The notes beneath the pieces were generated by a model. That model made no database searches. It was given only the letters and a program-made list of their open reading frames with translations, and had not been told where the DNA came from. Both the position numbers and the translations under genes were made by a program. DNA of 64,000 bases from Croceivirga sp. (GTDB lineage: Bacteria > Bacteroidota > Bacteroidia > Flavobacteriales > Flavobacteriaceae), in NCBI GenBank assembly GCA_028284285.1, contig JANQSA010000009.1:1-64000 (forward strand), in the 5' to 3' direction. This document shows, one piece after another, positions 3,150 through 10,366 of this stretch. Position 1 is the stretch's first letter. Each line of letters opens with the position of its first letter.

Positions 3150-3178
3150 ATTAAACCGTGGTTTAGTGTTTATTAAGA

Positions 3179-3208
3179 TCCCATCCGATATGCGGATGGG
3201 ATTTTTTT
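3179..3208 (+). terminator. Intrinsic terminator after the YceI operon
   Basis: A perfect 9-bp stem (TCCCATCCG / CGGATGGGA) with loop ATATG is followed by seven T. It ends the MarR-nitroreductase-YceI transcript and abuts the trp promoter, whose -33 TTG sits just behind the T-run. Confidence 0.92.
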
Positions 3209-3209
3209 G

Positions 3210-3240
3210 TTGGTATTCCTAATTTTGATTTCTATATTTG
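3210..3240 (+). promoter_or_regulatory. trp operon promoter (-33 TTGG, -7 TATATTTG)
   Basis: TATATTTG at 3233-3240 is a perfect TAnnTTTG -7 box. TTG at 3210-3212 lies 20 bases upstream, as expected for the -33 box of the Bacteroidetes primary sigma factor. The predicted transcription start is around 3244-3246, which coincides with the leader-peptide ATG at 3246. The leader mRNA would therefore have almost no 5' untranslated region. Confidence 0.7.
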
Positions 3241-3245
3241 AACCA

Positions 3246-3302
3246 ATGAATTACAATACAACAAATTCTTGGTGGTGGAAAAACTTACGTCAACTGTCGT
3301 GA
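3246..3302 (+). CDS. trpL: trp leader peptide (18 aa, three consecutive Trp)
   Basis: A short open frame starting ATG-AAT-TAC encodes MNYNTTNSWWWKNLRQLS and ends with TGA at 3300-3302. Codons 9-11 (3270-3278) are TGG-TGG-TGG. Three adjacent Trp codons in an 18-codon ORF, placed between a promoter and an intrinsic terminator directly ahead of trpE, are the hallmark of transcription attenuation by ribosome stalling. The TGA overlaps the segment that can form the antiterminator. There is no room for a ribosome-binding site if transcription starts where the -7 box predicts. Confidence 0.9.
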   Translation: MNYNTTNSWWWKNLRQLS

Positions 3303-3346
3303 GCTAGTCCCTGCTATAATCATATTTGAGGCTTGTCATCACGACA
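3285..3346 (+). promoter_or_regulatory. trp attenuator: alternative pairings (anti-antiterminator and antiterminator)
   Basis: Segment 2 (3295-3302, TGTCGTGA, including the leader stop codon) is perfectly complementary over 8 bases to 3339-3346 (TCACGACA), the loop and 3' arm of the terminator. Pairing them would destroy the terminator. Segment 2 can instead pair with 3285-3289 (TTACG with CGTGA, one G-U), a weak protector hairpin. A ribosome stalled on the Trp codons at 3270-3278 would mask 3285-3289 and free segment 2. A ribosome at the stop codon would cover segment 2 and let the terminator form. The geometry is observed; the regulatory behaviour is inferred. Confidence 0.7.
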
Positions 3347-3360
3347 AGCCTTAATTTTTT
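3329..3360 (+). terminator. trp attenuator terminator
   Basis: A 9-bp stem (AGGCTTGTC at 3329-3337 with GACAAGCCT at 3343-3351) has a 5-base loop and is followed by TAATTTTTT. It lies between trpL and trpE, only 14 bases before the trpE ATG, so it must be conditional rather than an operon end. Confidence 0.88.
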
Positions 3361-3373
3361 GAACCCATTTGAA

Positions 3374-4771
3374 ATGAAATTCGAACTTAATACGGAATAC
3401 AAACGGATCCTTGCAGATACGATTACCCCGGTGAGCGTCTACCTCAAGATTCGGGATAGATTTCCCAATAGTTTATTGCTGGAGAGTAGTGACTACCACG
3501 CCAATGACAATAGTTTCTCCTACATCTGTTGTAATCCCATCGCATTTATAAAAGTAGAAAACGAATCTATTCTGAAGTCGTACCCCGATGGGAGCCAAAC
3601 CCTTGAAAAAATTGAGGAGGCAACCGACCTCCCCATCGTATTGGATCAATTTGCCAAAACTTTTGAGGTTCAGGACATGCCGTTCAAGTTTGCCACCAAT
3701 GGCCTGTTTGGATACATGGCCTATGACGCTGTACGTTATTTTGAGGCGATACAGATTTCAAGGAAAGAGAATTCCGTTGCCATCCCTGATGTTTTTTATG
3801 CGGTATATCAAAATATAATCGCCATTAACCATTTCAAGAACGAGGCCTATATTTTCTCTCATTCACTAAATGGCGAGCATAATATAGAAGAAATAACACA
3901 GCTATTGCAAGTGCGGAATTTTGCTACCTATGACTTCAGCAGAAATGGTGAACTCGCCTCCAACCTTGAAGACCAAGAGTATCGGGAACAGGTAGCTTTA
4001 GCCAAAAAGCATTGTAAACGTGGGGATGTTTTTCAGCTGGTGCTTTCCAGAAGGTTTTCGCAAACCTTTAGGGGGGATGAGTTTAATGTCTACCGGGCGC
4101 TCCGCTCCATTAACCCCTCTCCTTACCTTTTCTTCTTTGATTATGGCAATTTTAAAATATTTGGAAGTTCTCCGGAGGCCCAATTGGTAGTGAACAACGG
4201 AAAGGCAGAAATCCATCCTATTGCGGGTACGTATAAAAGGACCGGAAATGATGAACAGGACGCCGAACTGGCCAAAAAACTGGCGGAAGATGATAAGGAA
4301 AACAGTGAACATGTGATGTTGGTGGACTTAGCCAGGAATGATTTGAGTCGGAATGGTAATGCTGTAAATGTGGAAACCTATCGGGAGGTACAATATTTCT
4401 CACACGTTATCCACCTGGTTTCCAAAGTCACCGGAGTAAAAAAACCAGATACCCCCACCTTAAAAATTGTTGCCGACACCTTTCCGGCGGGAACGCTAAG
4501 CGGGGCACCAAAACACAGAGCGATGCAACTCATAGAACAGTACGAAAAAACCAATAGGGGCTACTATGGCGGAGCTATAGGTTTTATGGATTTTACCGGG
4601 AATTTCAATCATGCCATTATGATCCGGACCTTTCTGAGTGAGAACCATACCCTTCATTTTCAGGCAGGGGCCGGGCTGGTGGCCGCTTCCGATCCGGAAA
4701 CCGAATTGCAGGAAACGTATAATAAACTGGGGGCATTGAATAAAGCCCTGGAAATTGCTGAAACCATATAG
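3374..4771 (+). CDS. trpE: Anthranilate synthase component I
   Basis: A 465-residue chorismate-utilising enzyme that, with TrpG, makes anthranilate from chorismate and glutamine. Visible motifs are the feedback-site LLES near residue 34, GSSPEAQL, HPIAGTYKRTG, HVMLVDLARNDLSR, FPAGTLSGAPKHRAM and RGYYGGAIGF. The LLES motif suggests the enzyme is inhibited by tryptophan, adding to transcriptional control by the upstream attenuator. The ATG at 3374 is chosen because it follows the terminator; extending to 3326 would place the start inside the terminator hairpin. TrpG starts two bases after the stop. Confidence 0.96.
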   Translation: MKFELNTEYKRILADTITPVSVYLKIRDRFPNSLLLESSDYHANDNSFSYICCNPIAFIKVENESILKSYPDGSQTLEKIEEATDLPIVLDQFAKTFEVQDMPFKFATNGLFGYMAYDAVRYFEAIQISRKENSVAIPDVFYAVYQNIIAINHFKNEAYIFSHSLNGEHNIEEITQLLQVRNFATYDFSRNGELASNLEDQEYREQVALAKKHCKRGDVFQLVLSRRFSQTFRGDEFNVYRALRSINPSPYLFFFDYGNFKIFGSSPEAQLVVNNGKAEIHPIAGTYKRTGNDEQDAELAKKLAEDDKENSEHVMLVDLARNDLSRNGNAVNVETYREVQYFSHVIHLVSKVTGVKKPDTPTLKIVADTFPAGTLSGAPKHRAMQLIEQYEKTNRGYYGGAIGFMDFTGNFNHAIMIRTFLSENHTLHFQAGAGLVAASDPETELQETYNKLGALNKALEIAETI

Positions 4772-4773
4772 GT

Positions 4774-5340
4774 ATGAAACAGGTGTTGATGATTGACAAT
4801 TACGATAGTTTCACCTACAACCTGGTGCACTATCTGGAGGAATTGGGTTGTGAAGTTGTTGTGAAACGCAATGATCAGCTTACCCTGAAGGAGGTAGAAC
4901 CTTTTACCTACATCGTCTTATCTCCGGGACCGGGTATCCCTGATGAGGCAGGACTATTGAAGGCCATTATATCCGAATACGGTGCCACCAAGCGGATCTT
5001 TGGAGTGTGTTTGGGTGCACAGGCCATTGGAGAGGTGTACGGCGGCAGTTTGATCAATTTGGACCAGGTGTATCATGGCATTGCCACACCGGTTAAAATT
5101 ACTGAAAAGGACTATATCTTTAATGATATCCCCCAGGAGATACAAGTAGGACGCTACCATTCCTGGGTTGTCCATCCTGATCTACCCAATCATCTAGAAG
5201 CCACCGCTTTTGATGAAAACGGGCAAATCATGGCCTTGCGACATAAAGACTATGATGTCCGTGGGGTTCAGTTTCATCCGGAGTCGATATTAACCCCTTA
5301 TGGGAAGAAGATGTTGGAAAACTGGTTGAATAAATCCTAG
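4774..5340 (+). CDS. trpG: Anthranilate synthase component II (glutamine amidotransferase)
   Basis: A 188-residue class I amidotransferase that supplies ammonia to TrpE. The N-terminal IDNYDSFTYNLV, the nucleophile Cys in FGVCLGAQAIGE, and the His/Glu pair in GVQFHPESILT are all present. It is not fused to TrpD, unlike in enterics. It lies two bases behind trpE. Downstream the operon is interrupted by a repeat-flanked four-helix-bundle gene before trpD. Confidence 0.96.
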   Translation: MKQVLMIDNYDSFTYNLVHYLEELGCEVVVKRNDQLTLKEVEPFTYIVLSPGPGIPDEAGLLKAIISEYGATKRIFGVCLGAQAIGEVYGGSLINLDQVYHGIATPVKITEKDYIFNDIPQEIQVGRYHSWVVHPDLPNHLEATAFDENGQIMALRHKDYDVRGVQFHPESILTPYGKKMLENWLNKS

Positions 5341-5342
5341 AT

Positions 5343-5377
5343 GTGAGTGGTGAGACGTGAGATATGAGAAATGAATT
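5343..5377 (+). repeat. Five tandem 7-nt repeats (GTGAG-type) left of the insert gene
   Basis: Directly after the trpG stop come five 7-base units in perfect phase: GTGAGTG, GTGAGAC, GTGAGAT, ATGAGAA, ATGAATT. The same heptad appears in opposite orientation at 5739-5759 behind the four-helix-bundle gene (ATCTCAA, ATCTCAT, ATCAACA). Together they form inverted, repeat-based ends around the gene, which is why I read the unit as an insertion. Confidence 0.75.
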
Positions 5378-5380
5378 AAG

Positions 5381-5737
5381 ATGAATAATTACAAAGAATT
5401 AATAGTTTGGCAAAAATCCATGCTTTTGGTTGAAATAGTCTACCAATTGACTAATTCATTTCCAGATGGAGAAAAATTCGGAGGTACCAACCAAATTCGA
5501 AGAAGTGCTGTTTCTGTTCCATCAAATATTTCTGAAGGTGCAGGAAGAAACTCCAAAAAAGAGTTTCGAAATTTCCTTGGAATAGCCAACGGCTCTCTGA
5601 ACGAGTTAATTACACAATTGGAACTTTCTAGTAGATTAGGATTCGCAAGCGAACATAAACTGAAAGATGCTTTAAGTTTAGGGGATGAAATTCAAAAAAT
5701 GCTTTATAGCCTAATTCGTAAATTTTCTAAAATCTAA
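5381..5737 (+). CDS. Four-helix-bundle protein (S23/23S rRNA intervening-sequence family) inserted in the trp operon
   Basis: A 118-residue helical protein with the family signature: N-terminal Y-K-E-L-I-V-W-Q-K-S, central Q-I-R-R-S-A-V-S-V-P-S-N-I-S-E-G, then G-S-L-N-E-L-I-T-Q-L. Members were first found in intervening sequences of 23S rRNA and also occur as free-standing genes; their function is unclear. No tryptophan-pathway role is known. It is visibly more AT-rich than trpG and trpD and is bordered by inverted 7-base repeats, so it looks acquired. It lies in the sense direction, so the operon message can continue into trpD 28 bases downstream. Confidence 0.85.
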   Translation: MNNYKELIVWQKSMLLVEIVYQLTNSFPDGEKFGGTNQIRRSAVSVPSNISEGAGRNSKKEFRNFLGIANGSLNELITQLELSSRLGFASEHKLKDALSLGDEIQKMLYSLIRKFSKI

Positions 5738-5738
5738 T

Positions 5739-5759
5739 ATCTCAAATCTCATATCAACA
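5739..5759 (-). repeat. Three 7-nt repeats, inverted relative to the left array
   Basis: ATCTCAA, ATCTCAT and ATCAACA follow the four-helix-bundle stop in 7-base phase. The middle unit is the exact reverse complement of ATGAGAT, a form of the heptad in the 5343-5377 array. They mark the right end of the apparent insert, six bases before the trpD start. Confidence 0.7.
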
Positions 5760-5765
5760 TAGTTT

Positions 5766-6761
5766 ATGAAAGAAATATTAACCCGATTGATCAACCATGA
5801 GATACTTTCCAAGGAGGATGCCAAAGAGATATTGGTAAACATTGCCAAAGGGGAATACAATACCAGCCAGATCGCCGCCTTCTTAACCGTTTATATGATG
5901 CGGAGCATTACTATTGCGGAATTGGAAGGCTTTCGCGATGCGTTGTTAGAACTCTGCCTGGCAGTGGACTTAAGTGAGTACGATCCCGTTGATCTGTGTG
6001 GCACCGGGGGGGATGGCAAGGACACTTTTAACATTTCTACCCTGGCCTCTTTTGTAACCGCAGGTGCAGGGATTAAAGTAACCAAACACGGTAACTACGG
6101 AGTTTCCTCAAAATGCGGCAGCAGCAATGTGATGGAGTTTTTGGGTATTAAATTCAGTAACGAAGCCGATTTTCTAAGAAAATCCATAGACAAAGCCGGA
6201 ATCTGTGTACTTCACGCCCCTCTATTTCATCCGGCCATGAAAAATGTGGCACCCATTCGCCGGGAGTTAGCGGTAAAGACCTTTTTTAATATGTTGGGGC
6301 CCATGGTGAATCCCGCTTTTCCCAGGAACCAGATGGTAGGGGTATTCAATCTGGAATTGGCCCGAATGTACGGGTATCTCTATCAAAATACGGATAAGAA
6401 TTTCACCATACTTCATGCTTTGGATGGTTATGATGAAATAAGCCTGACCGGTGCAACTAAAACCATTTCCAATACCTCGGAAGGTATGTTGATACCTACT
6501 GATTTTGGAGTGGAAACCATATCACCCAACGCTATTACAGGTGGGGATGATGTAGCAGATTCCGCTCAGATTTTCTTACATATCCTACAGGGCAAGGGCA
6601 CCGAGGCGCAGAATAATGTGGTCGCTGCCAATGCGGGGGTGGCCATCGCCACGGTTAAAGGGATACCTCCAAAAGAAGGTTTTGAAATAGCACGCGAATC
6701 CCTTCTGAGCGGGAAGGGATTACTGGCATTAAAAAAATTACAAGAACTCTCTGCAACATGA
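5766..6761 (+). CDS. trpD: Anthranilate phosphoribosyltransferase
   Basis: A 331-residue enzyme that joins anthranilate to PRPP. The PRPP loop GTGGDGKDTFNIST, KHGNYGVSSKCGSS, and the Arg-containing APIRRELAVKTFFNMLGPMVNP segment are intact. Length is normal for a stand-alone TrpD. Its last four bases (ATGA) overlap the trpC start, indicating translational coupling. The upstream neighbour is the four-helix-bundle insert rather than trpG; no separate promoter is evident in the 28-base gap. Confidence 0.96.
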   Translation: MKEILTRLINHEILSKEDAKEILVNIAKGEYNTSQIAAFLTVYMMRSITIAELEGFRDALLELCLAVDLSEYDPVDLCGTGGDGKDTFNISTLASFVTAGAGIKVTKHGNYGVSSKCGSSNVMEFLGIKFSNEADFLRKSIDKAGICVLHAPLFHPAMKNVAPIRRELAVKTFFNMLGPMVNPAFPRNQMVGVFNLELARMYGYLYQNTDKNFTILHALDGYDEISLTGATKTISNTSEGMLIPTDFGVETISPNAITGGDDVADSAQIFLHILQGKGTEAQNNVVAANAGVAIATVKGIPPKEGFEIARESLLSGKGLLALKKLQELSAT

Positions 6762-7543
6762 ATATTCTGGACCAAATAATAGCGGATAAACGCAGTGAGG
6801 TACTCCTTAAAAAGTCAATTATCCCTATAACACAATGGGAACAATCCGTACTGTTTGGACGGGAATGTACCTCCCTGGCTACAGCCTTGCGAACCAGTGA
6901 CACCGGAATTATCGCCGAACATAAACGGCGGTCACCTTCTAAGGGTACCATACACCAAGGCACCAATGTAGCCCAGGTGGCCAAGGGATATGAAGATGCA
7001 GGAGCATGCGGTATCAGCGTTCTTACTGACCTCAAGTATTTTGGAGGTGCTCTGGAGGATTTGCTTTTAGCCAGGGCTGCGGCGGCCCTGCCGCTACTTA
7101 GAAAAGAATTCATTATTGATGAATACCAGGTGGTAGAAGCCAAAGCACATGGTGCTGATGTTATTTTACTCATAGCCGCAGTATTGACAAGGAACGACAT
7201 TAAAACCTTATCCGAATTGGCTAAAAGTTTGGGTATGGAGGTATTGCTGGAAGTACACAATCAGGAAGAATTGGAAAACGCCATTATGCCCGGTCTGGAT
7301 ATGCTGGGCGTAAACAACAGGGACCTGAAAACTTTTGAAGTACGCCTGGATACCAGCACAACTTTGTCGGAACAGATCCCCGATGATTTTGTCAAGGTGT
7401 CGGAAAGCGGCATAAGTTCCATTGCCGCCATTAATGAATTAAAGGCTTTTGGGTTTCAGGGATTTTTAATTGGGGAAAACTTTATGAAAACAGCGCATCC
7501 CGGAAAAAGTGCAGCGGAATTTATACAGAAACTAAGGGTATGA
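6758..7543 (+). CDS. trpC: Indole-3-glycerol phosphate synthase
   Basis: A 261-residue TIM-barrel enzyme closing the indole ring of CdRP. The catalytic Lys in AEHKRRSPSKG, RKEFIIDEYQV, the Asn in GVNNRDLKTFEV and SESGIS are present. It is monofunctional, with TrpF encoded separately. ATGA overlaps join it to trpD upstream and trpF downstream. Confidence 0.96.
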   Translation: MNILDQIIADKRSEVLLKKSIIPITQWEQSVLFGRECTSLATALRTSDTGIIAEHKRRSPSKGTIHQGTNVAQVAKGYEDAGACGISVLTDLKYFGGALEDLLLARAAAALPLLRKEFIIDEYQVVEAKAHGADVILLIAAVLTRNDIKTLSELAKSLGMEVLLEVHNQEELENAIMPGLDMLGVNNRDLKTFEVRLDTSTTLSEQIPDDFVKVSESGISSIAAINELKAFGFQGFLIGENFMKTAHPGKSAAEFIQKLRV

Positions 7544-8220
7544 AACTAAAGATCTGTGGTCAGAAACATAATGTCAAAGCGGTAGCGGCATTGCAGCCGG
7601 ACTACCTTGGCTTTATATTTTGGAAGCCCTCGCCCCGTTATTTCGAAGGAGAAATGCCTTTTTTGGGGAATGACATCAACAAGGTAGGGGTATTTGTAGA
7701 TGCTGAACGGGAAGAAGTGATTGCGAAAGTAAGGCGATATGATCTGGATGCCGTGCAATTACATGGGCAGGAAAGTTCAGCATATTGCCAGGCATTACAG
7801 GATGATTTTCAAATCCTCTCAAATGAAAAAGCACCATCCAAAGATCTCAGTAAGAACGGGAAAGTAGAGATCATTAAGGTATTTTCCATTCGGGATACCT
7901 TTGACTTTTCCGTTTTGGAACCCTATGAAAAGGTTTGTGATTACTATCTCTTTGATACCAAGGGAAAACTACCTGGAGGGAATGGGTATGCTTTTAACTG
8001 GGAGATACTAAAAGACTATCCTTCCGTGAAACCGTATTTTCTAAGTGGTGGAATCGGTTTGGAAAATGTGGACTCCCTCCTGTCTTTCCTGGATCGGCCG
8101 GAGTCCAAGTACTGCTATGCTATTGACATAAACAGTAAGTTTGAAATTCAACCGGGCTTAAAAGATATTCATCAAATTAAAGAATTTAAAAAATTGCTAG
8201 AACATGAGTTATCACGCTGA
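7540..8220 (+). CDS. trpF: Phosphoribosylanthranilate isomerase
   Basis: A 226-residue TIM barrel. Catalytic Cys is in the N-terminal KLKICG motif; [18 protein letters not shown] (general acid Asp) and [10 protein letters not shown] follow. It converts PRA to CdRP between TrpD and TrpC. The start overlaps the trpC stop by four bases, and its 3' end overlaps trpB by 17 bases, so the trpC-trpF-trpB block is tightly coupled. Confidence 0.95.
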
Positions 8221-9385
8221 CGAAAAAGGCTATTACGGGGAATTTGGGGGGGCTTATATCCCCGAAATGCTGTATCCCAACTGTGAAGAGTTACGGCAAA
8301 ATTATATCCGGATTATGGAAGAACCTTCCTTTCGAGAGGAGTTTCAACAATTGCTCCGGGACTATGTAGGGCGTCCTACCCCACTCTATTTTGCAGAACG
8401 GTTATCAGAAAAATATAATACCAGGATCTATCTGAAACGTGAAGATCTTTGTCATACCGGCGCACACAAGGTAAATAATACCATCGGGCAGATTTTGATG
8501 GCCAAGAAATTGGGGAAAGATCGGATCATTGCGGAAACCGGAGCCGGTCAACACGGAGTAGCTACCGCTACCGTATGTGCCTTGATGGGTATTGAATGTG
8601 TGGTGTATATGGGAGAAATTGACATTACCCGTCAGGCCCCTAATGTGGCCCGGATGAAGATGTTAGGCGCTGAGGTACGCCCGGCCAGATCCGGTAGCCG
8701 TACCTTAAAAGATGCCACCAATGAGGCGATCCGGGACTGGATCAACAATCCGGTGAATACCCATTATATCATTGGATCTGTTGTAGGCCCACATCCCTAT
8801 CCCGACATGGTAGCCCGGTTTCAATCTATAATCTCTGAGGAAGTAAAAGGGCAGTTGCGCGAAAAAGAAGGACGGGAAAATCCCGATTATGTAGTGGCTT
8901 GTGTAGGGGGAGGCAGTAATGCGGCAGGTATTTACTACCACTATTTAGATGTTCCGGAAGTAGGTATAATAGCTGTAGAAGCTGCAGGTAAAGGCATCCA
9001 TTCAGGGGAAAGCGCCGCCACCTCTGCCCTGGGAAAAGTGGGTATTATTCATGGTAGCAAAACCTTGCTAATGCAAACCGGAGACGGGCAGATCACGGAA
9101 CCCTATTCCATCTCCGCCGGGCTGGACTATCCCGGGGTAGGCCCTATGCATGCGCATTTGTTTAAAAGCGGGCGGGGAGAATTCATCTCTATTACCGATG
9201 ATGAAGCCATGACGGCCGGACTGGAGCTTTCGCAATTGGAAGGTATTATCCCTGCCATAGAAACCAGCCACGCCTTTGCCATTTTTGATTATAAGAAATT
9301 TGAAAAAGATGATGTTGTGGTGTTTAACCTGTCAGGAAGAGGGGACAAGGATTTACAAACCTATATTGACTATTTTAAGTTGTAA
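8204..9385 (+). CDS. trpB: Tryptophan synthase beta chain
   Basis: A 393-residue PLP enzyme condensing indole with serine. The PLP lysine lies in [21 protein letters not shown] follows, and the phosphate-binding GGGSNAAG is intact. It is a TrpB1-type sequence, with the N-terminal segment [12 protein letters not shown], normally partnered with TrpA. The start overlaps trpF by 17 bases. TrpA does not follow immediately but 219 bases later, behind two palindromic repeats. Confidence 0.97.
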
Positions 9386-9393
9386 AACTGGTC

Positions 9394-9414
9394 ATGCTGA
9401 ACTCGTTTCAGCAT
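9394..9414. repeat. REP-like palindrome (ATGCTGAA / TTCAGCAT)
   Basis: A perfect 8-bp inverted repeat with a 5-base loop lies nine bases after the trpB stop. From experience this GCTGAAC...GTTTCAGCATCTC form is a common dispersed palindrome in Bacteroidetes; only one copy is seen in this window. No T-run follows, so it is not a classical terminator. The rest of the 219-base trpB-trpA gap shows no gene and no clear promoter. Confidence 0.6.
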
Positions 9415-9549
9415 CTCAAAGTATAACGGATGCGAACATGTTATGTATACATAGTGACAAATAAGAATCGTAGTACATTCTATATAGGGGTAACATCTAA
9501 TTTAAGGAATTGAATCCCAAATTATCAACTTTGGAATTTTAAAAATAAG

Positions 9550-9592
9550 AACCTGAAACCTGCCTTTGCCGTCAGGCAGGCAAGTTCAGGTT
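9550..9592. repeat. Nested palindrome before trpA (CCTGCC family)
   Basis: The outer arms AACCTGAA (9550-9557) and TTCAGGTT (9585-9592) enclose inner arms CCTGCCT (9559-9565) and AGGCAGG (9574-9580). The inner arms match the palindromes at 66-87 and 17378-17396. The structure sits 12 bases before the trpA ATG and would form a stable hairpin in the operon mRNA. Confidence 0.7.
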
Positions 9593-9604
9593 GACTATAC
9601 TACA

Positions 9605-10366
9605 ATGAATAGAATCAATCAAAAACTAAACGAGGATCAAAAACTCCTCTCCATATATTTTACAGCAGGCTATCCTAATTTAGAGGACACCGTTCCCATT
9701 ATCCAAGGGTTGGAAAAAGCCGGGGTGGATATGATCGAAATTGGATTGCCTTTTAGCGATCCACTGGCAGATGGCCCCACCATACAGGAAAGTTCAACCG
9801 CAGCCCTAAAAAATGGTATGACCACCGAGCTATTGTTCGATCAATTAAAAGATGTCCGAAAGTCCGTCACCCTACCCCTGATCATCATGGGGTATTTTAA
9901 CCCGGTATTGCAATACGGGGTGGAGGCTTTTTGCAAAAAGTGCCAGGAAATTGGGATAGACGGGCTCATCCTGCCCGATCTTCCTTTTGACGTATACCAG
10001 GAGAAATATGAACCTGTTTTTAAAACCTATGGCCTAAGCAATACTTTTTTAATAACTCCCCAGACCAGTGATGAACGCATTCGGAAAATCGACTCGGCTT
10101 CCGACGGGTTCATTTATATGGTGAGTTCGGCCAGTACCACAGGGGCCAAAAGCGGCTTTGGTGATGAGCAACAGGCCTATTTTGATCGTGTAGCTGCTTT
10201 GGAATTAAAGAACCCACAGATCGTTGGCTTTGGTATCAGTAACTCTGCCACCTTTCAAGCCGCCACTGCCAAAGCGAAAGGGGCAATAATTGGTTCGGCC
10301 TTTATTAAACACCTTACCCAAAATGGAGTAGACACCATTGTCGATTTTATTCAGGGAATTCGCTAA
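9605..10366 (+). CDS. trpA: Tryptophan synthase alpha chain
   Basis: A 253-residue TIM barrel cleaving indole-3-glycerol phosphate. The catalytic Glu and Asp are in MIEIGLPFSDPLADGPTIQ, followed by GYFNPVLQYG, GLILPDLP and YMVSSASTTG. The ATG at 9605 gives the canonical N-terminus NRINQKL; the frame is open upstream only through the repeat hairpin. It is the last gene of the trp operon, detached from trpB by a 219-base repeat-containing gap. Whether it has its own promoter is unclear. Confidence 0.96.
   Translation: MNRINQKLNEDQKLLSIYFTAGYPNLEDTVPIIQGLEKAGVDMIEIGLPFSDPLADGPTIQESSTAALKNGMTTELLFDQLKDVRKSVTLPLIIMGYFNPVLQYGVEAFCKKCQEIGIDGLILPDLPFDVYQEKYEPVFKTYGLSNTFLITPQTSDERIRKIDSASDGFIYMVSSASTTGAKSGFGDEQQAYFDRVAALELKNPQIVGFGISNSATFQAATAKAKGAIIGSAFIKHLTQNGVDTIVDFIQGIR

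Follow-up and report, generated by a model that had tools for sequence, protein, structure and literature searches.

The question raised by this locus is whether the DNA ahead of trpE in a Croceivirga sp. (assembly GCA_028284285.1) is an attenuator in which translation of a leader peptide decides on transcription of the trp operon and, if so, which part of the terminator its antiterminator takes. The window, i.e., the whole stretch of DNA analysed, comprises 64,000 nt (contig JANQSA010000009.1, positions 1–64,000, forward strand), and all features described below are on the plus strand. The site lies between a YceI-family gene and trpE. Read from 5′ to 3′, it contains the box TATATTTG at 3233–3240, a leader ORF at 3246–3302, a spacer, an intrinsic terminator at 3326–3354, a T6 run, and trpE. 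All coordinates in a preliminary description of the site turned out to be correct to the base on direct reading of the sequence. A separate strong terminator-like hairpin (3175–3205, a 13-bp stem followed by a T run) is found 3′ of the YceI-family gene, directly before the trp promoter.

The preliminary description implied that a trp attenuator is a novelty in Bacteroidota. This is not the case. The site matches the Rfam family RF01692 (Bacteroid-trp) at 3226–3337 over the full model length, with a cmscan score of 50.5 bits against a gathering cut-off of 49, and this match, upstream of trpE–trpA, is the sole one in the genome. Bacteroid-trp was reported by Weinberg et al. in 2010 (PMC2864571), in whose Table 1 it carries a "y" both for RNA and for cis-regulatory, in Bacteroidetes. 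The available part of PMC6414381 names it upstream of the F. psychrophilum trp operon, and that of a transcriptome study of the same flavobacterium (PMC9723704) gives strong indications that amino-acid operons are attenuated through leader peptides. As far as the text available from these sources goes, the kind of element is therefore already known.

Conservation was followed in several sets. The named trpE loci are close relatives, since only the best 80 of 563 were kept (75–88% identity, the closest being Flavobacteriaceae); one of them, L079, comes without upstream DNA, leaving 79. An attenuator with a WWW leader was found in all 79 of these loci from among the best 80, so that Trp-rich leaders are not missing in close relatives, an outcome that would have spoken against the preliminary description. 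The leader lies no more than 450 nt upstream of trpE in 72 of the 79 and 466–554 nt upstream, then followed by the same kind of terminator, in seven (L009, L012, L027, L028, L041, L043, and L056). Absence of the leader in these seven loci was considered and ruled out, as it stands behind DNA inserted between the attenuator and trpE. The insert in L009 (2177–2461) encodes a GIY-YIG protein, which would fall under attenuator control. Within the genus, the attenuator is present in 11 of 11 genomes and RF01692 matched five; the other six (L143–L148) carry it with no RF01692 match at the search threshold, so database annotation may underestimate the element. RF01692 matches were obtained in 208 of the 299 genomes sampled from the family and in 42 of 395 from the phylum.

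In total, 230 leaders were parsed (the window, 72 named loci, L082–L141, L162–L178, and L179–L258), a set that holds duplicates because some genomes are present under two labels; the 80 further regions are a selection among the RF01692 matches listed rather than all 208. A terminator was recognised in 229 of them, L230 being dropped. A 125-row alignment was built from sequence only, with a k-mer redundancy filter, from leaders of the distal type, i.e., those whose strongest helix between spacer and terminator involves the terminator loop and distal arm. The percentages for the antiterminator, the protector, and the switching therefore exclude 14 leaders of the proximal type.

The promoter was assigned from the −7 box TATATTTG at 3233–3240, which fits the consensus TAnnTTTG given in the available part of PMC9723704. 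Flavobacterial sigma-A boxes are placed there at −12 to −5, and since this rule, applied to 3233–3240, puts the start at 3245, one base 5′ of the AUG, the 5′ UTR would be 1 nt long and the trp leader transcript is predicted to be almost leaderless. A TAnnTTTG box no more than 40 nt before an in-frame ATG was seen in 205 of the 230 leaders. The gap between box and ATG is 4–8 nt in 102 leaders, 10–31 nt in 101, and 0–1 nt in two; short spacing is therefore common, not general. Leaderless mRNAs make up a small minority in F. psychrophilum (5.5%), and the bacterial group is described as having no Shine-Dalgarno sequences, both according to the available text of PMC9723704. The locus may be a case of attenuation on an mRNA apparently without a 5′ UTR, in just such a group.

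The leader ORF, trpL (MNYNTTNSWWWKNLRQLS), is an 18-codon frame running from the ATG at 3246 to the TGA at 3300–3302, with three consecutive TGG codons at 3270–3278, as had been described; these can be read directly, and WWW recurs in relatives. The intrinsic terminator claimed ahead of trpE is likewise plain from the sequence: 12 pairs between 3326–3337 and 3343–3354, a loop of 5 nt, and the U tract at 3355–3360 (T6). In the 125-row alignment 99.9% of its cells are paired, five pairs being doubly changed, and RNAalifold on the aligned leaders gave the terminator alone. The 116-nt leader RNA folds with z = −4.95, none of 200 dinucleotide shuffles being equally good. Downstream are trpE (anthranilate synthase I, 3374–4771, PF04715 and PF00425) and, at 4774–10366, trpG, a 23S_rRNA_IVP-type ORF, trpD, trpC, trpF, trpB, and trpA, named from Pfam families and gene order. 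The ORF between trpG and trpD (5381–5737, 118 aa) belongs to the 23S rRNA-intervening-sequence protein family (PF05635) and is thus placed inside the trp operon.

A protector hairpin of 5 bp had been proposed at the end of the leader ORF. The pairing of 3285–3289 with 3298–3302 does exist, with one G·U, but the pair C3284:G3303 extends it to the 6-bp inner hairpin CUUACG:CGUGAG (3284–3303), and the protector as a whole is larger because the Trp codons (3270–3277) pair with 3309–3316 to form an outer stem. In the unmasked fold of the window the outer stem appears together with the 6-bp hairpin, and the outer stem is also among the Rfam consensus pairs in window coordinates. The inner hairpin is paired in 74.3% of cells of the alignment, while slid registers reach 19–60%; the register slid by −3 gives a higher covariation score than the actual one, which makes this hairpin the least supported helix.

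The helix that would act as antiterminator, called the lock below, joins the end of the leader ORF to the terminator. Positions 3295–3302 (TGTCGTGA; RNA strand UGUCGUGA) are the exact reverse complement of 3339–3346 (TCACGACA), i.e., of the loop nucleotides UCAC and the first four nucleotides of the distal arm, over 8 bp and no longer. The exact 8-base complementarity noted earlier thus stands, but only 6 bp of it are conserved in the alignment. The core UCGUGA:UCACGA, whose leader strand is 3297–3302, has standard pairs in 121, 124, 125, 125, 125, and 120 of the 125 leaders, the two outer pairs in 20 of 110 and 63 of 125. The best leader–terminator helix of the window was matched by 1 of 200 spacer shuffles (p 0.005). 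The pattern TCGTGA-N30..60-TCACGA occurs once in the window against 0.02 expected; in the whole genome it is found in four places, its backwards control in two. The earlier placement of the antiterminator on the distal arm is borne out by the larger set: of 229 leaders, 215 have their strongest spacer–terminator helix on the loop and distal arm, as against 14 with it on the proximal side. The label "distal" refers to the strongest helix, and in a few rows (L117, L176) that helix is not the lock. Single leaders give moderate support, 98 of the 143 distal ones tested reaching p < 0.05.

Covariation was counted on the sequence-only alignment; choosing a register by best pairing biases towards pairing. 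The nine pairs counted contain 18 doubly changed cells, as compared to a shuffled mean of 4.5, and none of 500 shuffles was as high; two core pairs account for five of the 18, the two outermost, flanking pairs for 13. The actual register is paired in 78.6% of cells and slid registers in 17–59%. Registers slid by +1 and +3 nevertheless reach the observed covariation score (0.052 and 0.048 vs. 0.048) with 17% and 38% of cells paired, and the +1 register has 16 doubly changed cells. The case for the lock, as read from these comparisons, is built on near-universal pairing and a few real compensations (e.g., L257) more than on bulk covariation. L257 itself has a two-Trp leader (GWW) and a rewritten 11-bp lock, TTTGTCGCAAT:ATTGCGACAAG, the clearest natural compensatory variant found.

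Peptide constraint as the cause of UCGUGA can be ruled out from the reading frames. Three of the 125 leaders have no ATG in the slice, hence the frame counts refer to 122. In 94 of these 122 the frame of the lock is UCG-UGA, which puts the stop at +3; the stop is at +7 or +8, in other frames, in 18, the lock follows the stop in 8, and offsets of 0 and +11 occur in one leader each. The constraint must be on the RNA, because the lock is read in several frames or left untranslated. All 122 leaders keep the stop codon within −9 to +11 nt of the lock and begin their last Trp codon 20–24 nt ahead of it. Such spacing fits a sensor of ribosome position, since the lock would be covered by a ribosome that has reached the stop and left exposed by one at WWW.

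Folding with and without ribosome masks, one of the checks proposed in the preliminary description, gave the expected switch, but only while the 3′ arm of the terminator is emerging. The 125 distal leaders were folded with a ribosome stalled at the second Trp codon, with one at the stop codon, and with none, 4–10 nt of the 3′ arm having emerged. With 4 nt out, the stalled ribosome leaves the lock in 124 of 125 leaders and the terminator in none; with the ribosome at the stop, where the mask covers the lock by construction, the terminator forms in 118; with no ribosome, the protector forms in 95, the terminator in 77, and the lock still in 30. The corresponding values with 6 nt out are lock 111 and terminator 14 (stalled), terminator 125 (at the stop), and terminator 119, protector 120, and lock 5 (no ribosome). 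The stalled state is then lost, the lock forming in 20 and the terminator in 105 of 125 at 8 nt, and in 4 and 121, respectively, at 10 nt. In the stalled control at 4 nt, a reversed lock forms in 15 of 125 leaders and a shuffled one in 22. Antiterminator and terminator thus exclude each other by ribosome position in silico at 4–6 nt of the 3′ arm and not at full length. In the window, the finished terminator has −17.8 kcal/mol as compared to −9.6 kcal/mol for the lock alone, and the change-over from lock to terminator falls between nascent ends 3348 and 3350. As the finished terminator is favoured in every state, the switch must be kinetic. RNA polymerase hides about 14 nt of RNA; allowing for these, the change-over point is near the end of the RNA emerged with the polymerase at the U tract, which suggests that the lock would act kinetically.

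Conservation, some covariation, and masked folding thus support the stall/no-stall switch claimed earlier, and the site is very probably a ribosome-mediated transcription attenuator of the trp operon and a member of the Bacteroid-trp family. The proposed sequence of events is as follows. The RNA would start at or beside the leader AUG. If no ribosome is engaged, the Trp codons would pair with 3309–3316 around the inner hairpin, the protector would hold the lock strand, and the terminator would form. When charged tRNA-Trp is ample, the ribosome would reach the UGA inside the lock and cover the lock, with the same outcome. When Trp is short, the ribosome would stall at WWW and remove the 5′ strand of the protector, leaving the lock free. 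The free UCGUGA could then pair with the terminator loop and the first nucleotides of the distal arm as they emerge, the segment that follows it assisting through pairs with the proximal arm, and once the lock has formed RNA polymerase would read through into trpE.

The same complementarity might instead be a pseudoknot, UCGUGA:UCACGA being formed with the loop of the finished terminator and tuning terminator strength rather than serving as an antiterminator. In its favour, the terminator loop supplies four of the paired letters, the stem keeps −7.8 kcal/mol when reduced to its lower 8 bp, and the full-length terminator is favoured in 121–125 of 125 leaders. Against this, the lock takes letters of the distal arm, the U of column 47, outside the protector, faces an A in 119 of 125 leaders, and the L257 helix extends 6 nt into the arm; a 6-bp helix would hardly fit a 5-nt loop, and a stop codon within or near the lock fits ribosome masking. 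We therefore regard the pseudoknot as improbable. Leaders that sense tRNA or protein instead of the ribosome (T-box, TRAP) serve the trp operons of Firmicutes, but no T-box covariance-model match was obtained in the window at the gathering score, nor in 3150–3450 up to E = 1, and the conservation of WWW and of the stop position argues for a ribosome sensor, so that a leader of this type is hardly credible here.

A further reading makes the short terminated RNA or the peptide, acting elsewhere, the main product and attenuation its by-product, in the manner of rnTrpL and peTrpL of Sinorhizobium. There is a precedent in S. meliloti, where, according to the available part of PMC7298713, the RNA also starts at the trpL AUG. 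However, the peptide after WWW varies and shifts frame while the RNA lock is kept, and there is one RF01692 match per genome among the genomes listed with a match; a product acting in trans is accordingly very unlikely to be the main one. Ribosome-mediated attenuation remains the preferred reading.

Compared to known systems, the attenuator is like RF01692 in having a Trp-codon leader upstream of trp genes in Bacteroidota and in the outer protector stem 3270–3277:3309–3316. The Rfam model (as distinct from the supplementary diagrams of 2010) stops at 3337, where the proximal arm of the terminator ends, and thus lacks both the full terminator and the lock partner; of its inner pairs, only 3284–3286:3301–3303 are shared with the inner hairpin, the rest being in another register. 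The classical trp attenuators of Actinobacteria, in the available text of PMC1262725, also have double or triple UGG, a poly-U terminator, and an antiterminator, but there one segment pairs with both others (gGCC-rGCy-GGCC), whereas the helix best conserved here involves loop and distal arm. F. psychrophilum, of the same bacterial family, has structured 5′ regions in its transcriptome and Bacteroid-trp at its trp operon, and the available parts of PMC9723704 and PMC6414381 describe no antiterminator. The S. meliloti trpL RNA (rnTrpL) begins at the leader AUG, near which the start is predicted here too, but it belongs to a different phylum and is a different RNA, with trans roles reported in the accessible part of PMC7298713 and none known here. 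No description of a trp antiterminator in Bacteroidota was found in the literature surveyed, whose coverage stops short of subscription journals and supplementary files. What is unexpected here is the conserved, uncatalogued lock, together with a register that possibly differs within the family; that an attenuator exists is not. The conserved lock and terminator give the RF01692 entry a mechanism that is testable base by base, and they form a basis for a better search model.

The proximal arm also appears to take part. In the fold of the window with a stalled ribosome and the nascent end at 3346, a second antiterminator segment (3303–3311), weaker than the lock, is predicted to pair as 3303–3304:3335–3336, 3306–3309:3330–3333, and 3311:3328. 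When the segment from lock to loop is folded, 122 of 125 leaders have 4 or more of the 10 nucleotides of the proximal arm paired with upstream sequence, and in 116 of 125 the stability of this fold exceeds the mean obtained with 20 shuffled spacers. The window is an exception, its lock-to-loop fold (−13.7 vs. −15.5 in shuffled spacers) being no better than chance.

E. coli trpL comprises a leader peptide with tandem Trp codons, a protector, a terminator, and an exclusive antiterminator (2:3) that takes the proximal arm of the terminator. Tandem Trp codons, a protector, a terminator, and a predicted exclusive antiterminator are found here as well. The differences are that the best conserved helix here involves the loop and the start of the distal arm, proximal pairing being predicted and less conserved, that the stop codon lies inside the lock, and that the start is predicted to be almost leaderless. 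The preliminary description had called the site mechanistically distinct from E. coli. The distal arm is indeed taken, but the claim was overstated: the antiterminator is predicted to engage the proximal arm as well (122 of 125), which makes the contrast only partial, and 14 of 229 leaders are of the proximal type.

These 14 consist of all 11 leaders from a second family of the same class (f3), L254, and the borderline L243 and L258. The 11 leaders (L162–L172) are WWWH or WWWL and have their strongest helix with the proximal arm; p < 0.05 was reached in four of the 11, and some of the helices have only 4–5 bp. Judged by their predicted helices, leaders of this family may use the proximal arm. 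The family may, as a guess, be Bacteroidaceae, because a Bacteroides control genome also matches RF01692. It is possible, the balance being somewhat against it, that the Flavobacteriaceae have a sub-architecture of the trp attenuator of their own. In this reading the leader RNA is almost leaderless and its stop codon is part of a kinetic lock, which would capture the loop and the first nucleotides of the distal arm in the few nucleotides of transcription that precede completion of the terminator. Homologues in the second family would rely on the proximal arm, so that the register of the antiterminator would have changed in evolution. If true, one homologous switch would have undergone this change, and a natural comparison of two antiterminator registers within one RNA family may be on offer. 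In L254, a leader from a different family within the order, the terminator has another sequence and its proximal arm is matched over 10 bp.
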